Assembly: GCF_024346315.1 (NCBI RefSeq)
Contig: NZ_JAGQCS010000006.1
Span: 1 to 64,000, forward strand
Reading direction: 5' to 3'
Length of the DNA stretch: 64,000 nt
DNA from: Cyanobium sp. ATX 6F1
GTDB taxonomy: Bacteria; Cyanobacteriota; Cyanobacteriia; PCC-6307; Cyanobiaceae
Shown: positions 45,895 through 48,975 of the stretch, in pieces
How positions within the stretch are numbered: position 1 is the first letter of the stretch
Layout of the letters: every line of letters starts with the position of its first letter
Made by a program: the position numbers and the translations under genes
Notes under the pieces: model-generated
Database searches by the model: none
What the model saw: the letters and a program-made list of their open reading frames with translations, nothing else
Told to the model about the DNA's origin: nothing

Positions 45895-46500
45895 TCAGAT
45901 CGCGCCCTTGGTGGGTGGATTGAGAGCAGCGTTGCCGCCGTAGAGGCTGGCGGTGCGGTTCAGCGTGGTGAGTGGCAGGCCGTCCGGGGTGTCGAGGCCG
46001 CGGAGGTAGGGCACCGTGTCGCGGCCGAAGTTGGTGGCGTACTCGTCGCTGTTGATCAGGGTTTCGAGGGCCCGTTGTTGACCGTGGTTGGCCTGGCTGG
46101 CCAGGAACGCGCTCACTTCGCTGGCCTGGGCGGCCCTCCCTAGCAGAGCGAGGTAGGCCGCCGTTGCGGCCCGCAGCGGGGCCAGCCGGTTCAAGCGCTG
46201 CCCAAACAGCTCGCTGGAGGCCAGGAGCGCCACGAATTCCGACACCGAGATGTGGCCATCACGGAGCTGGGATTCGGCATCACCGAGGCGTTCTGAGGCC
46301 AGCACATCACGATTGAGGAGTTGGCGATAAACGTTGCGGAGCACGCTCTGCAACTCGCCTTCGCCGGGGAACCTTGACAGCCGCAAGCGCTCCGGGAGGC
46401 TGCGGCGGCGGGTCAGCCCCTGGGGCTTGCCGGGACGCAGGGCCTTGGCCATCGCCGAAACCGGCGGTTCGCTAGCGACGAAGCCGCGGCTGCTGCCCAT
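45895..46500 (-). CDS. Stand-alone phycobilisome linker: detached third REP domain and C-terminus of ApcE
   Basis: A 201-residue ORF. Residues about 50-168 form a phycobilisome linker (REP) domain (VLRNVYRQLLNRDVL.., DGHISVSEFVALLASSELF, LETLINSDEYATNFGRDTVPYLRGL), and the end, NRTASLYGGNAALNPPTKGAI, is the standard C-terminus of full-length ApcE. A basic, Pro/Arg-rich N-terminal stretch precedes the REP domain. It is in the same frame as apcE but separated from it by four in-frame stops in 90 bases. ATG 46500 is the first possible start (ATG 46452 the next); neither has a clear ribosome-binding site. It is either an independent core linker or a remnant left by truncation of apcE. Confidence 0.8.
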   Translation of the reverse strand: MGSSRGFVASEPPVSAMAKALRPGKPQGLTRRRSLPERLRLSRFPGEGELQSVLRNVYRQLLNRDVLASERLGDAESQLRDGHISVSEFVALLASSELFGQRLNRLAPLRAATAAYLALLGRAAQASEVSAFLASQANHGQQRALETLINSDEYATNFGRDTVPYLRGLDTPDGLPLTTLNRTASLYGGNAALNPPTKGAI

Positions 46501-46587
46501 CAGCGGCTTTCAAGTTGGCGGCACCCAGGTACTGCAGGGCTAGGTCTCTGGGGTGGGTGGAGAGATGGGTCCGCCCGCTCAGGAGAG

Positions 46588-48975
46588 CTAGACCTGCGTG
46601 GCCACCTGCTTGGGCTGCCAGCGAGCGGCGCTCCAGCGGCGGGTGGGAGGGGGGTTCTCGGGCCAGCTCTGGGGAGCGATGGTGGCGAAGCTCCCCGTGG
46701 CGGTGTCGCTGCCGCTGGTGTCGAAACCTTGAGCGTCGTCGTCGTTGGCGCTGATCTTGGCTTTCCAGCCGCCCAATACCACCCGCTTGCGGGCGGTCAG
46801 GTTGCGCGGGGTGACCTCCGAGCTGTTGACGATGCCCTCCTGAGTTCTCACATCGGGCCGCCTTAACTGCTGGGGCTGGATGTCCGCATAGGCGCCGGCG
46901 TTGAAGGGCCGTTTGAGGGCGGGCACCCGTCGCGCGTTGAGATCGTTCGCGGTGATGAAGCGCTCGTACGGGACGGTGTCCTCACCGAAGCTTTCGCTGT
47001 ATTCGGAGCTAGCGAGGATGGCATCCACCACCCCGTAAAAACCCTTTCGGGCCGCGGTGTCGAAGTAGCCGTCAATTTCCCAGCGACCGAAGGTGGGGCG
47101 ACCCAGCAGCCGGCGGTGGATGATCTCGATCGCCTTGGTGATGTACAGACCGTTCCAGTAGCGGCGACGGAAAGCGGTTGAGCGAGCCACCTCACGGATG
47201 AAGTCCCGCAGGCAGATGTCGCCATTCTCGAGCTTGATCTCCTCCACCTTCAGGCGCTCACCGGCATAGCCGGCCGTGCCCAGCACCTGCACGTAGACGG
47301 CGTCGATCACCGCGCTGGTGCTTGATTCGGTTCGGCGAATGCTGGGTTGTCCACCACGGCGCGGAACCGAGGAGCCGCCGGTGGAGATCTGCTGCAGGCG
47401 CACCAGTTTCGGCCCCACCCGGCGGGGCTTGGCCTTGCGGAACTGGGGGCTGTCCATCTGCCCCGGCTGGGCGATGCCGTTGCCGATCAGGATCCGTCGG
47501 TTGTCGTAACCGACAGGAGCTGGACGGGTGGCCACGGACGCCGTGCCCGAGGGGAAGATGGCGCCGTAGTTGAGGGCGAGCGGGTCGTTGCCGCCGCCGT
47601 AGGCGTGTTGATCGGCGAAGGGCTGGCGGTAGGAGGCGTAGAGCGTGACGTACTGCGGTGCCCCCTCGAAGGGCGCGCTGAAATTGAACAGCTTGCGGTT
47701 GGACCCCCAGCCGGCGCTCTCCTGGGCTTCCTCCCCGAGATCGCGCAGGAAGGGAACGGTTTCCTCCCCGAACACCCGGGCGTATTCCTGGGTGTTGATC
47801 AGAGCGTCGACCAAGCCCTTGAGGCCCTGGGCACTGACGATGTCGAAGTAGCGGGTGAACTCCTCTCGGGAGCTGATGCCTCGGCCAAGGAAGTGGCGGA
47901 AGGCCAGCTCGACGGCGCGGCTGTTGGAGAAGCGCCCGTAGAACTGCTGGCGGTACTCCTTGCTCTGGCCAAGGGAGCGGATGAACTCGCGCATCGAGAT
48001 CTGTCCCTGACGCACCTGGGTGGCCTCAACAGGGCTCACCACCTGGCTGTAGCCCTTGACGATGTCGCGCTCGAACACCTGCCTGTAGGCCGCCCGGATC
48101 ACCTCGGCCTTCTGGGCGCCGGTCTGGCCGGGCTTGATGTTGTAGCGGGGGGCCTTGCCCTGGGCTGCCAGCGCGTAGTTGGCAGGTAGCTGCAGACCCT
48201 GGTTTTCGGGGCTGCCGAGACGCTGGCGGGGGGAGGGGGTGGGAACGTCGAGTTCCTTGATCAGGACGTTGAAGGCCTCGATCACCAGGCTCCGGGCTTC
48301 AGGCTCGCCGTTGAACAGCTCCGCGGCGGCGGCGCGCATTTCCTGCAGGGCCACGTTGGTGGCTGTCAGGGAGCATCCCTTCTCGAGCACATCCCGCAGG
48401 CCGCGGGTGTTCACAGAAAGGATGCTGGGGTCGCCGGCCATCACTGAGTAGCCCACGTAACGCAGGAACCAGGCCAGGTCGCGCACGGATTTGCGCATGC
48501 GCTCCGTGCCGTACAGGGCGACGCTGATCGGGCTGAAGCCGGTGGGGAGCACGACGCGCACATCCGCATCGGCCTGGAGGCCCCCAAGAACCCTGCCCAG
48601 GAAGCCCTTGGTGGCACTGCCCTGGGCAAACGTGGCGACCGAGGCCGCAAAGGCGATCTGATCGGCCGCCAGGGGCGTGGCCTCAGCGCTGCGTTGGGAC
48701 TCCGGGGTCAGCGGGGCATCGAGGTAGGAGAGCGGGGTACCGCCGGAGAAGATGCGGTTCGCCGCGCGACCAACGATGCCATCGGCGTTGGCCGACAGAC
48801 GCCTGGCGACCTCCACACGTACGAGACCGGTCTGGAAGAAGGTGCTGAGGTTGTCGAGCTCGCCGAGATCGGGGAAGCGGTCCTGTTGCTCCGCCTGACG
48901 GACGCTGGAGAGCGGCAGGGTGTCAAACAGCTGGGGTGAAACCCTGGGGCTGCCGCTGCTGGCGGTCACGGTCAT
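46588..48975 (-). CDS. apcE: Phycobilisome core-membrane linker ApcE (short, two-REP form)
   Basis: A 795-residue protein. Its N-terminal phycobiliprotein-like domain (1-about 240) carries chromophore Cys201 in EKGCSLTATNVAL and the PB-loop around 80-145. REP1 spans about 290-415 (AEVIRAAYRQVFERDI..GEETVPFLRDLG), an arm follows to about 550, and REP2 spans 554-672 (SAVIDAVYVQVLG..EDTVPYERF). A third arm to 795 then stops at TAG. ApcE is the terminal emitter and scaffold of the phycobilisome core. Three REP domains are expected in related picocyanobacteria; here the third is encoded separately just downstream. Start ATG 48975 (MTVTASSGSPRVSP) is the family N-terminus. Confidence 0.95.
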   Translation of the reverse strand: MTVTASSGSPRVSPQLFDTLPLSSVRQAEQQDRFPDLGELDNLSTFFQTGLVRVEVARRLSANADGIVGRAANRIFSGGTPLSYLDAPLTPESQRSAEATPLAADQIAFAASVATFAQGSATKGFLGRVLGGLQADADVRVVLPTGFSPISVALYGTERMRKSVRDLAWFLRYVGYSVMAGDPSILSVNTRGLRDVLEKGCSLTATNVALQEMRAAAAELFNGEPEARSLVIEAFNVLIKELDVPTPSPRQRLGSPENQGLQLPANYALAAQGKAPRYNIKPGQTGAQKAEVIRAAYRQVFERDIVKGYSQVVSPVEATQVRQGQISMREFIRSLGQSKEYRQQFYGRFSNSRAVELAFRHFLGRGISSREEFTRYFDIVSAQGLKGLVDALINTQEYARVFGEETVPFLRDLGEEAQESAGWGSNRKLFNFSAPFEGAPQYVTLYASYRQPFADQHAYGGGNDPLALNYGAIFPSGTASVATRPAPVGYDNRRILIGNGIAQPGQMDSPQFRKAKPRRVGPKLVRLQQISTGGSSVPRRGGQPSIRRTESSTSAVIDAVYVQVLGTAGYAGERLKVEEIKLENGDICLRDFIREVARSTAFRRRYWNGLYITKAIEIIHRRLLGRPTFGRWEIDGYFDTAARKGFYGVVDAILASSEYSESFGEDTVPYERFITANDLNARRVPALKRPFNAGAYADIQPQQLRRPDVRTQEGIVNSSEVTPRNLTARKRVVLGGWKAKISANDDDAQGFDTSGSDTATGSFATIAPQSWPENPPPTRRWSAARWQPKQVATQV

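Follow-up and report, generated by a model that had tools for sequence, protein, structure and literature searches.

The phycobilisome core linker gene apcE is naturally divided in Cyanobium sp. ATX 6F1, where its third linker repeat (REP3) stands as a separate ORF, and cuts in the same part of the gene recur among freshwater-type relatives. We consider it reasonably probable, judging from sequence, that this is a recurrent natural split in which REP3 is still made and acts in trans, and that the divided state is unstable and often leads to an ApcE with two REP domains. ApcE serves as the ruler that sets how large the phycobilisome core is.

Truncation of apcE and identity of the free REP3

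The window is a 64,000-nucleotide stretch of contig NZ_JAGQCS010000006.1. Within it, apcE lies on the minus strand and runs from an ATG at 48975 to a TAG at 46588-46590, encoding 795 aa. A domain profile search placed one phycobiliprotein domain (PF00502) at the N terminus, followed by two PF00427 stretches, the arrangement that identifies the product as ApcE, and the C-terminal end falls after REP2. The ORF and its PF00427 matches confirm the two-REP ApcE described in the sequence-only reading, and the four in-frame stops after REP2 (first bases 46590, 46581, 46542 and 46512) are where that reading had put them. By tblastn, the apcE region aligned with intact ApcE over residues 1-1012 at 84-85% identity, and the genome (99.98% complete) yielded one full-length apcE match. 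The features are as follows.

46588..48975, minus strand: truncated apcE, comprising the alpha-LCM domain, REP1, REP2 and the start of Arm2 (ORF, profile search, tblastn to Morenito 9A2, L010)
47734..48132, minus strand: REP1 (PF00427), bounds approximate, REP3 as query
46948..47331, minus strand: REP2 (PF00427), bounds approximate, REP3 as query
46588..46590, minus strand: TAG ending apcE, equivalent to the Trp782 codon TGG of the relative (alignment to relative)
46501..46587, minus strand: spacer of 87 bases, formerly Arm2 coding sequence, interrupted by stops at 46581, 46542 and 46512; a pair of 1-base indels (near 46543 and 46504) compensate each other
45895..46500, minus strand: free third-REP ORF, 201 codons from ATG 46500
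46450..46452, minus strand: second in-frame ATG, equivalent to Met828 of the intact relative; product 185 aa
46000..46359, minus strand: PF00427 domain of free REP3, residues 48-167 (profile search)

The third REP was likewise found, as had been claimed, in a separate 201-aa ORF (46500-45895) that ends in NPPTKGAI and gives one full-length PF00427 match (E 2.1e-30). Its position and identity mark it as the third ApcE domain: it is 80% identical over 201 aa to the equivalent part of Morenito ApcE and occupies the same place before apcA. The CpcG and CpcC rod-core and rod linkers also carry one PF00427 domain, and the best single-domain PDB scores for free REP3 include a rod linker at 86 bits, but NCBIfam CpcG models scored 46-60 bits against cut-offs of 420-440 (best 60.2 versus 420). 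Position and identity show that it descends from ApcE. The predicted structure (mean pLDDT 67.5, pTM 0.54) returned phycobilisome entries for all of the best 50 of 83 PDB matches, with TM-scores near 0.4 and large rmsd that did not discriminate the nearest REP.

Three-REP ApcE (LCM) proteins of picocyanobacteria, such as those of Morenito 9A2 and marine Synechococcus, have the same position before apcA and the same domains, whereas in the window REP3 is a separate ORF. The available text of PMC2246261 describes three repeat domains in marine Synechococcus LCM, except in two strains with four, and a degradation product, LCM', that often accompanies it. The 705-aa two-REP ApcE of Synechococcus elongatus PCC 7942, from a bicylindrical core (available record of PDB 9wg7), has the same domain set as the 795-aa protein. 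A REP-only core linker that lacks a phycobiliprotein domain, as free REP3 does, is ApcH of Anthocerotibacter panamensis (431 aa, two matched PF00427-like stretches), which joins core sub-complexes and falls outside the ApcE clade according to the available text of PMC10696076. With the ApcH type defined as REP-only proteins carrying more than one REP, free REP3, a cut-off piece of ApcE with one PF00427 domain, falls outside it.

In a tree, alpha REP3 was placed outside the group formed by REP1, REP2, rod linkers and beta REP3, and a single clade of alpha and beta REP3 was not rejected by the AU test (p = 0.125). The rule that REP count equals cylinder count was derived from beta-cyanobacteria. 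Because of this, and because orthology to beta REP3 is not clear, the assignment of the third REP to a third (top) cylinder in this lineage is made by analogy.

Origin of the spacer

Cyanobium sp. Morenito 9A2, the sole other genome of the genus compared, encodes one intact ApcE of 1012 aa and served as the reference. The spacer has the length of its coding linker, 31 codons. Relative to Morenito, a TGG has become TAG at 46588-46590, a second nonsense change has occurred at 46579-46581, and one base has been lost near 46543 and one gained near 46504 (positions set by alignment). Between the two indels the sequence is read out of frame, which creates the stops at 46542 and 46512. A single frameshift hidden in the 87-base spacer is ruled out, since two nonsense changes and two indels are needed, which bears out the earlier assertion that one sequencing error or one frameshift would not suffice. 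Each of the four disruptive changes hits the spacer or the stop at its boundary, and the 603 coding bases of REP3 are free of them.

That the split is an assembly or sequencing error is very improbable. An error might leave a pair of 1-base indels such as those seen here, 39 bases apart, but the two nonsense changes come in addition. When 55 stretches of the window were matched to Morenito ORFs, stops appeared in 13, one of them apcE. Among the other 12, seven had the stop close to the end of the gene or within an N-terminal extension, four were wrong-strand ORFs over intact genes and one was a short row at 46% identity. There was no sign of poor assembly near apcE, the sole real window gene broken mid-gene in comparison with Morenito.

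Synthesis of full-length ApcE by stop read-through or programmed frameshifting is extremely improbable. A single stop in an otherwise open frame, as seen in some relatives (G188, G226, G154 and G106), speaks for it, but translation of the whole window gene would require read-through of two in-frame nonsense codons followed by two frameshifts, and the stop codons and their contexts vary between genomes.

Recurrence of the split among relatives

The family search covered 400 genomes sampled evenly out of a larger group, with "freshwater-type" and "marine-type" denoting genus-group labels taken from record titles and background knowledge rather than from a habitat field. An apcE match was present in 132 freshwater-type genomes (39/42 + 78/79 + 15), of which 128 were assessable after exclusion of G319, G202, G074 and G110, where the contig breaks off ahead of Arm2 or within it. 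G257 (L025), with one TGA in the search rows, was counted as intact because its alignment has no stop up to residue 1006. ApcE is cut in Arm2, the variable linker between REP2 and REP3, in 25 of the 128 freshwater-type genomes versus 0 of 74 marine-type genomes (Fisher p 7e-6, uncorrected for kinship). Open frames of 953 aa or more are present in 73 of the 74 marine-type genomes, and in G331 the gene is spread over two contig pieces, with Arm2 covered by one of them. Outside the family, 115 of the 116 matches listed show an open frame of at least 888 aa without a stop. The 723-aa open frame of G435, also outside the family, is probably a two-REP ApcE of the PCC 7942 type; we know of no REP3 ORF adjacent to apcE in PCC 7942 itself.

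If breaks are never mended, the cuts fall in at least 15 clades. Nine of the 25 cut genomes have an intact free REP3 (in G369 the halves, on different contigs, were paired by hand), in one it is hidden by a contig end, five have a decaying REP3 (G181, G360, G343, G142 and G204), and ten have traces or none in view. In some of these ten the traces were read by eye from the DNA, and in G136 the contig end is too near to judge. No REP3 match was found downstream of the two-REP ApcE in the single-contig genomes G046, G083 and G054, and relocation of REP3 was rejected, as the 187 genomes whose REP3 match reached E <= 1e-25 include none of the ten. Several of the other split genomes come from fragmented assemblies, and some of these bear a MAG label, which would suit an assembly error; the single-contig genomes argue against it, as does a separate Arm2 cut in Vulcanococcus limneticus LL (L031), a strain record without a MAG label.

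Splits with an intact REP3 occur in single tips or in sister pairs with different breaking changes: the sisters G303 and G357 have different frameshifts, and the sisters G106 and G158 different stops. Because cuts are found in at least 15 clades, those with an intact REP3 are confined to single tips or sisters, and in other genomes REP3 has decayed or disappeared since the cut, the divided gene looks like a repeatedly entered, often transient state. The idea of a modular design distinctive to this strain is not sustained by this distribution.

Position of the breaks and selection on REP3

Every tip-level first break (13 of 13) falls within reference codons 765-830, a segment holding 6.1% of codons and 5.8% of the one-step-to-stop sites of 91 intact genes. 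This concentration within some 6% of the gene also weighs against sequencing error. Measured against Arm2 and REP3 alone, the clustering has p about 7e-8, with events taken as independent and kinship and mutation bias ignored. The first breaks in the genes examined were in Arm2, with none in REP1, REP2 or REP3, and REP3 was spared although it is 2.5 times larger than the core of Arm2.

Selection was assessed with a custom codon model whose branch lengths came from the front of the gene, the tests ignoring kinship and mutation bias. REP3 omega was 0.094 in the background versus 0.073 pooled over the nine split tips (upper bound 0.091). For the window tip, omega was 0.119 (upper bound 0.186), a point estimate above the 0.080 of its intact sister, and omega = 1 was rejected (2dlnL 152); the decayed copy of G360 gave 0.29. 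From these sequence comparisons, the free REP3s appear to evolve under purifying selection like the fused ones, and the third REP of the window bears no sign of relaxed selection.

It is possible, though doubtful, that free REP3 became a pseudogene very recently: the cut would have taken the third REP out of the phycobilisome, leaving the cell with a two-REP bicylindrical core, and REP3 would have yet to decay. The 201 codons are open and neutral omega is rejected, but a very recent loss of constraint may have occurred. The relatives with decaying REP3 or with traces or none (the short contig of G136 among them), and the confinement of intact-REP3 splits to single tips or to pairs with different changes, favor this possibility. 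Window REP3 also carries changes at 4 of 53 near-invariant columns, three of them private and one found in the intact sister too, which puts it in the upper tail, since 4 of 91 intact genes have four or more such changes; G303 and G357 each have 4, G369 has 5 and each of the remaining five split copies 0 or 1. None of the splits with an intact REP3 is clearly common to two species, so they may be young, and an omega taken along the full tip branch reflects mainly the time before the split. An old split common to G303 and G357 would have been the cleanest post-split test, but their frameshift sites differ, and their joint omega is therefore not post-split evidence.

Against a young pseudogene stand the pooled omega, which is not raised, and the avoidance of the larger REP3 by first breaks. 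By our own arithmetic, the chance that three further changes, if neutral after the first break, would all fall in 87 of 690 bases is about 0.002. With uniform split ages, a neutral REP3 would stay free of stops with a probability of about 0.4 per lineage, giving 3.7 of 9 expected versus 9 seen, a weak argument that is set aside here.

Translation and control of REP3

The second in-frame ATG (46450-46452) would yield 185 aa from a start position common to most other split genomes. The equivalent Met828 is invariant in 91 of 91 intact relatives and sits at the border of gap-rich Arm2 and REP3. An ATG giving exactly 185 aa is kept in seven of eight split genomes examined, preceded in four of the seven by an SD-like purine motif. 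No SD-like site was found before either window REP3 ATG, which would suit a pseudogene.

A simple consensus scan of the stretch between the two ORFs found nothing resembling a promoter or terminator, and hence no sign of separate control; a terminator-like match at 45852-45839, just past the REP3 ORF, was no more than shuffles yield. There is a slim chance that free REP3 is a regulated module, with the core, as the sequence-only reading proposed, bicylindrical by default and gaining a third cylinder when the small linker is made. This is a special case of the explanation that we favor, and its probability is not to be added to that of the latter. Separate ORFs would in principle allow the two proteins to be produced in unequal amounts, REP3 is under apparent purifying selection, and ApcH (available text of PMC10696076) offers a precedent for a free-standing linker of the core; the lack of a site in the scan and the scattered splits, with no conserved two-gene arrangement, tell against it. 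We give a small chance, though a somewhat better one, to Met828 being a real internal start in intact freshwater apcE. Full-length ApcE and free REP3 would then both already be made. On this view the splits would only lay open an existing two-product gene, and how many cores carry an extra cylinder could depend on the dosage of free REP3.

Discussion

The apcE gene of this freshwater picocyanobacterium has been cut in Arm2, a fast-evolving linker, and the Trp-codon nonsense change, the second nonsense change and the two compensating indels now part a 795-aa two-REP ApcE from an intact REP3 ORF of 185-201 aa. In the explanation that we prefer, the third REP is probably still translated from the same mRNA, the likeliest start being the Met828 ATG or the ATG 48 bases ahead, and probably binds its allophycocyanin cylinder in trans, so that loss of the covalent link would cost little. 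With the link gone, REP3 would be easily lost, and several relatives now have a two-REP ApcE and predicted bicylindrical cores.

In the open-licence PubMed Central literature, as judged by titles and abstract openings, we found neither a split apcE nor breaks in Arm2 described. For annotation, the finding is a warning that about a fifth of the core linker can sit in a neighboring small ORF. It raises the testable question of whether a REP domain can build its cylinder only when joined covalently to ApcE. The family presents the stages of shortening side by side and many times over, from the intact gene through a split with REP3 conserved and a split with REP3 decaying to the loss of REP3, and an antenna protein is thereby seen shrinking in evolution, domain by domain.

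Results

apcE Is Split in the Window

The split of apcE, the gene for the core-membrane linker of the phycobilisome (ApcE or LCM), was confirmed. The coordinates and stops assigned to both frames in the sequence-only reading proved correct in the window sequence.

48975 to TAG at 46588-46590, minus strand: apcE, as read from the open frame
46500-45895, minus strand: free REP3, a 201-codon ORF that encodes the third REP domain (PF00427) and has the typical C-terminus of ApcE

Three further in-frame stops lie between the apcE TAG and the REP3 ORF, and the window's genome gave one full-length apcE match. 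The comparison genome was Cyanobium sp. Morenito 9A2 (locus L010, genome G001), the sole other genome of the genus in the set, in which apcE is a single open frame of 1012 aa with a REP2-REP3 linker equal in length to the window's stop-to-ATG stretch. Alignment revealed that Trp782 of the relative (TGG) is TAG in the window, that a second nonsense change lies three codons past this site, and that the spacer has a one-base loss (−1 indel) near 46543 followed by a one-base gain (+1 indel) near 46504, the latter restoring the frame. Two nonsense changes and two indels represent several mutations and not one error; a single sequencing error is therefore excluded as the cause, as had been argued from the stops. 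As an assembly check, the 64-kb window was compared with 100 kb of Morenito 9A2. Stops were present in 13 of 55 homologous stretches, namely apcE and 12 others, the latter comprising seven gene ends or N-terminal extensions, four wrong-strand ORFs, and one short weak row.

By position and identity, the third REP is assigned as REP3 of the picocyanobacterial-lineage ApcE. Its best single-domain PDB scores (82-86 bits) were with a rod linker and with Gloeobacter and Anthocerotibacter linkers, and scores of 40-63 bits were obtained with the four REPs of two pentacylindrical ApcE chains compared domain by domain. Rod-type and Gloeobacter linkers thus outscore the compared beta-cyanobacterial ApcE REPs as matches to the domain itself (46000-46359), which has an LYGGNA tail. 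In a domain tree, alpha REP3 was set apart from other REPs, and an AU test did not reject an alpha plus beta REP3 clade (p = 0.125), so assigning the third REP of picocyanobacterial ApcE to the top cylinder is an analogy. In a marine-type open frame of 1195 aa (L220, G259), the third REP, of the alpha type, is duplicated in tandem; a four-domain LCM has been reported in two marine Synechococcus strains (PMC2246261).

ApcE Breaks Recur at Arm2

The 201-aa REP3 query matched 187 of 400 family genomes at E ≤ 1e-25, several with short open frames around REP3. Full-length apcE searches covered 42 genomes of genus g6 (39 matched), 79 of other non-marine genera (78 matched), 74 of marine-type genera (74 matched), and the 400 family genomes again (194 at E ≤ 1e-280). 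One matching contig titled as a Bifidobacterium breve MAG (L011, CALPNT020000002.1) encodes a Cyanobium-type apcE and is mislabelled or contaminated. Matches to apcE came from 132 freshwater-type genomes; Arm2, the variable linker between REP2 and REP3, was judgeable in 128 of them, and ApcE was cut there in 25. No apcE stop was found in any of the 74 marine-type genomes searched. Outside the family, 115 of 116 rows among the matches listed had open frames of at least 888 aa, the other having 723 aa.

Table. State of REP3 in the 25 genomes with cut ApcE
Intact free REP3 (9): G000 (window), G188 (contig of Vulcanococcus limneticus LL), G226, G154, G106, G273 (contig of Cyanobium CACIAM 14), G303, G357, G369
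Contig end inside REP3 (1): G158
REP3 decaying (5): G181, G360, G343, G142, G204
ApcE of 773-789 aa, REP3 reduced to traces or not seen (10): G019, G068, G095, G136 (contig stops too early to show sequence after the shortened apcE), G152, G125, G182, and the single-contig G046, G083, G054

A tree built from the front part of apcE placed the 25 genomes with cut ApcE in at least 15 clades. Two clades, in genera g19 and g46, held five species each; stops within the g46 clade lie at different places, and more than one event is therefore possible there. The remaining genomes were single tips or sister pairs, with different breaking changes within both pairs (G303/G357 and G106/G158). The G357 gene (L084) also has a 22-codon in-frame gap in the REP1-REP2 arm, at reference positions 521-542 (Morenito 9A2 numbering).

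In the cryo-EM structure from Thermosynechococcus vulcanus, the A cylinder holds Rep1 and Rep2, the B cylinder Rep3, and the C cylinder Rep4, the Reps being joined by arms 1-3 (PMC9205905); Arm2 is thus the Rep2-to-Rep3 link. Every break found here falls within it. In 91 intact genes, codons 765-830 account for 6.1% of codons and 5.8% of sites one step from a stop; in the cut genes, 13 of 13 tip-level first breaks fell in this stretch. Breaks farther upstream would cost the protein its REP2, possibly with lethal effect, so Arm2 is fairly compared with REP3 alone; no first break fell in REP3 despite its 2.5-fold larger size (p about 7e-8, events taken as independent). This suggests that a cut before REP3 is tolerated and that damage to REP3 is not, or is tolerated only at a later stage. 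Possibly, the same positions reflect half-REP3 tails being harmful while clean loss of REP3 is harmless.

Selection on Free REP3

REP3 omega was estimated with a branch-class codon model (own script) over 157 codons in 104 genomes. The background value was 0.094, the pooled value for nine split tips 0.070-0.073 (upper 0.091), and the window value 0.119 (upper 0.186). An omega of 1 was rejected for every split tip taken singly (2dlnL 84 to 226). The decayed REP3 of G360 had an omega of 0.29 (2dlnL 31 versus background), and the test is therefore able to detect decay; that of G181 (103 codons; 0.131) was not distinguishable. The window offers an internal clock: its 87-base spacer, margin included, holds four disruptive changes and the 603 REP3 coding bases hold none. 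A functional free REP3 appears reasonably probable from these sequence data. Its recent death would be a rather unlikely alternative: a pooled omega not raised over background and the confinement of disruptions to the spacer argue against it, but most splits may be young, so that tip omega would reflect mostly pre-split time, and of 53 near-invariant columns the window REP3 departs from 4, sharing one departure with its sister. At least four such differences occurred in 4 of 91 intact genes, which places the window in the upper tail; among the remaining split copies, G303, G357, and G369 had 4, 4, and 5, and five had none or one.

Probable Expression and Candidate Start Codon of Free REP3

A simple consensus scan detected no promoter- or terminator-like site in the window spacer, so apcE and free REP3 are likely to share one mRNA. 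Methionine at reference position 828, at the end of gap-rich Arm2 and the start of the conserved REP3 arm (46450-46452 in the window), was conserved without exception in the 91 intact genes. Its ATG would yield a product of exactly 185 aa in seven of eight split genomes examined (G369 and G158 left out), four of the seven having a Shine-Dalgarno-like motif ahead of it; the motif is absent in the window, which has an additional ATG 48 bases upstream. In G226, a small deletion removed Met828, leaving GTG and later ATG codons in its stead. Comparison of tails by eye (18 of 20 gave a row) showed Leu in four of 10 marine-type tails (G259, G264, G212, and G140), Met at or a few residues from position 828 in the others, and no Met at this site in eight beta-cyanobacterial arms.

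Discussion

That REP number tracks core size is established (PMC8448738, PMC10053587, PMC12152189, PDB 9wg7): extra C cylinders accompany a fourth REP in Anabaena (PMC8448738), thermophile ApcE has two, three, or four domains (PMC10053587), a far-red bicylindrical core is built on ApcE2 (PMC12152189), and the Synechococcus elongatus bicylindrical core is available (PDB 9wg7). ApcH of Anthocerotibacter is a core linker made of REP only (PMC10696076). In a comparative study, LCM of marine Synechococcus is reported to have three repeat domains, with typical three-cylinder cores in most strains, and to be often accompanied by a degradation product, LCM' (PMC2246261). Such common nicking may fit with a broken chain staying assembled. 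A search of titles and abstract starts in open-licence PubMed Central found no mention of split apcE; a genome paper on freshwater picocyanobacteria records the presence of ApcE in the strains it covers (PMC10161378).

A clean two-REP ApcE was observed in several freshwater picocyanobacteria, some of them single-contig (L093 of G046, L199 of G083, L200 of G054, and L092, L194, L196, and L197 of genus g19), for which a bicylindrical core in alpha-cyanobacteria is predicted.

The sequence-only reading had proposed a modular design in this strain. The split it rested on is real, and a design distinctive of this strain is not supported, as breaks at Arm2 recur and REP3 is often lost; the proposal is accordingly widened and toned down. 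Taken as a regulated module, in which the small linker adds a third cylinder, it is possible but so far unsupported. Judged from the genomes compared, natural breaks of ApcE at Arm2 recur among freshwater picocyanobacteria, and the window split is one instance of them. Once split off, the third REP can apparently be retained by selection as a protein of its own, and from this state it is often lost.
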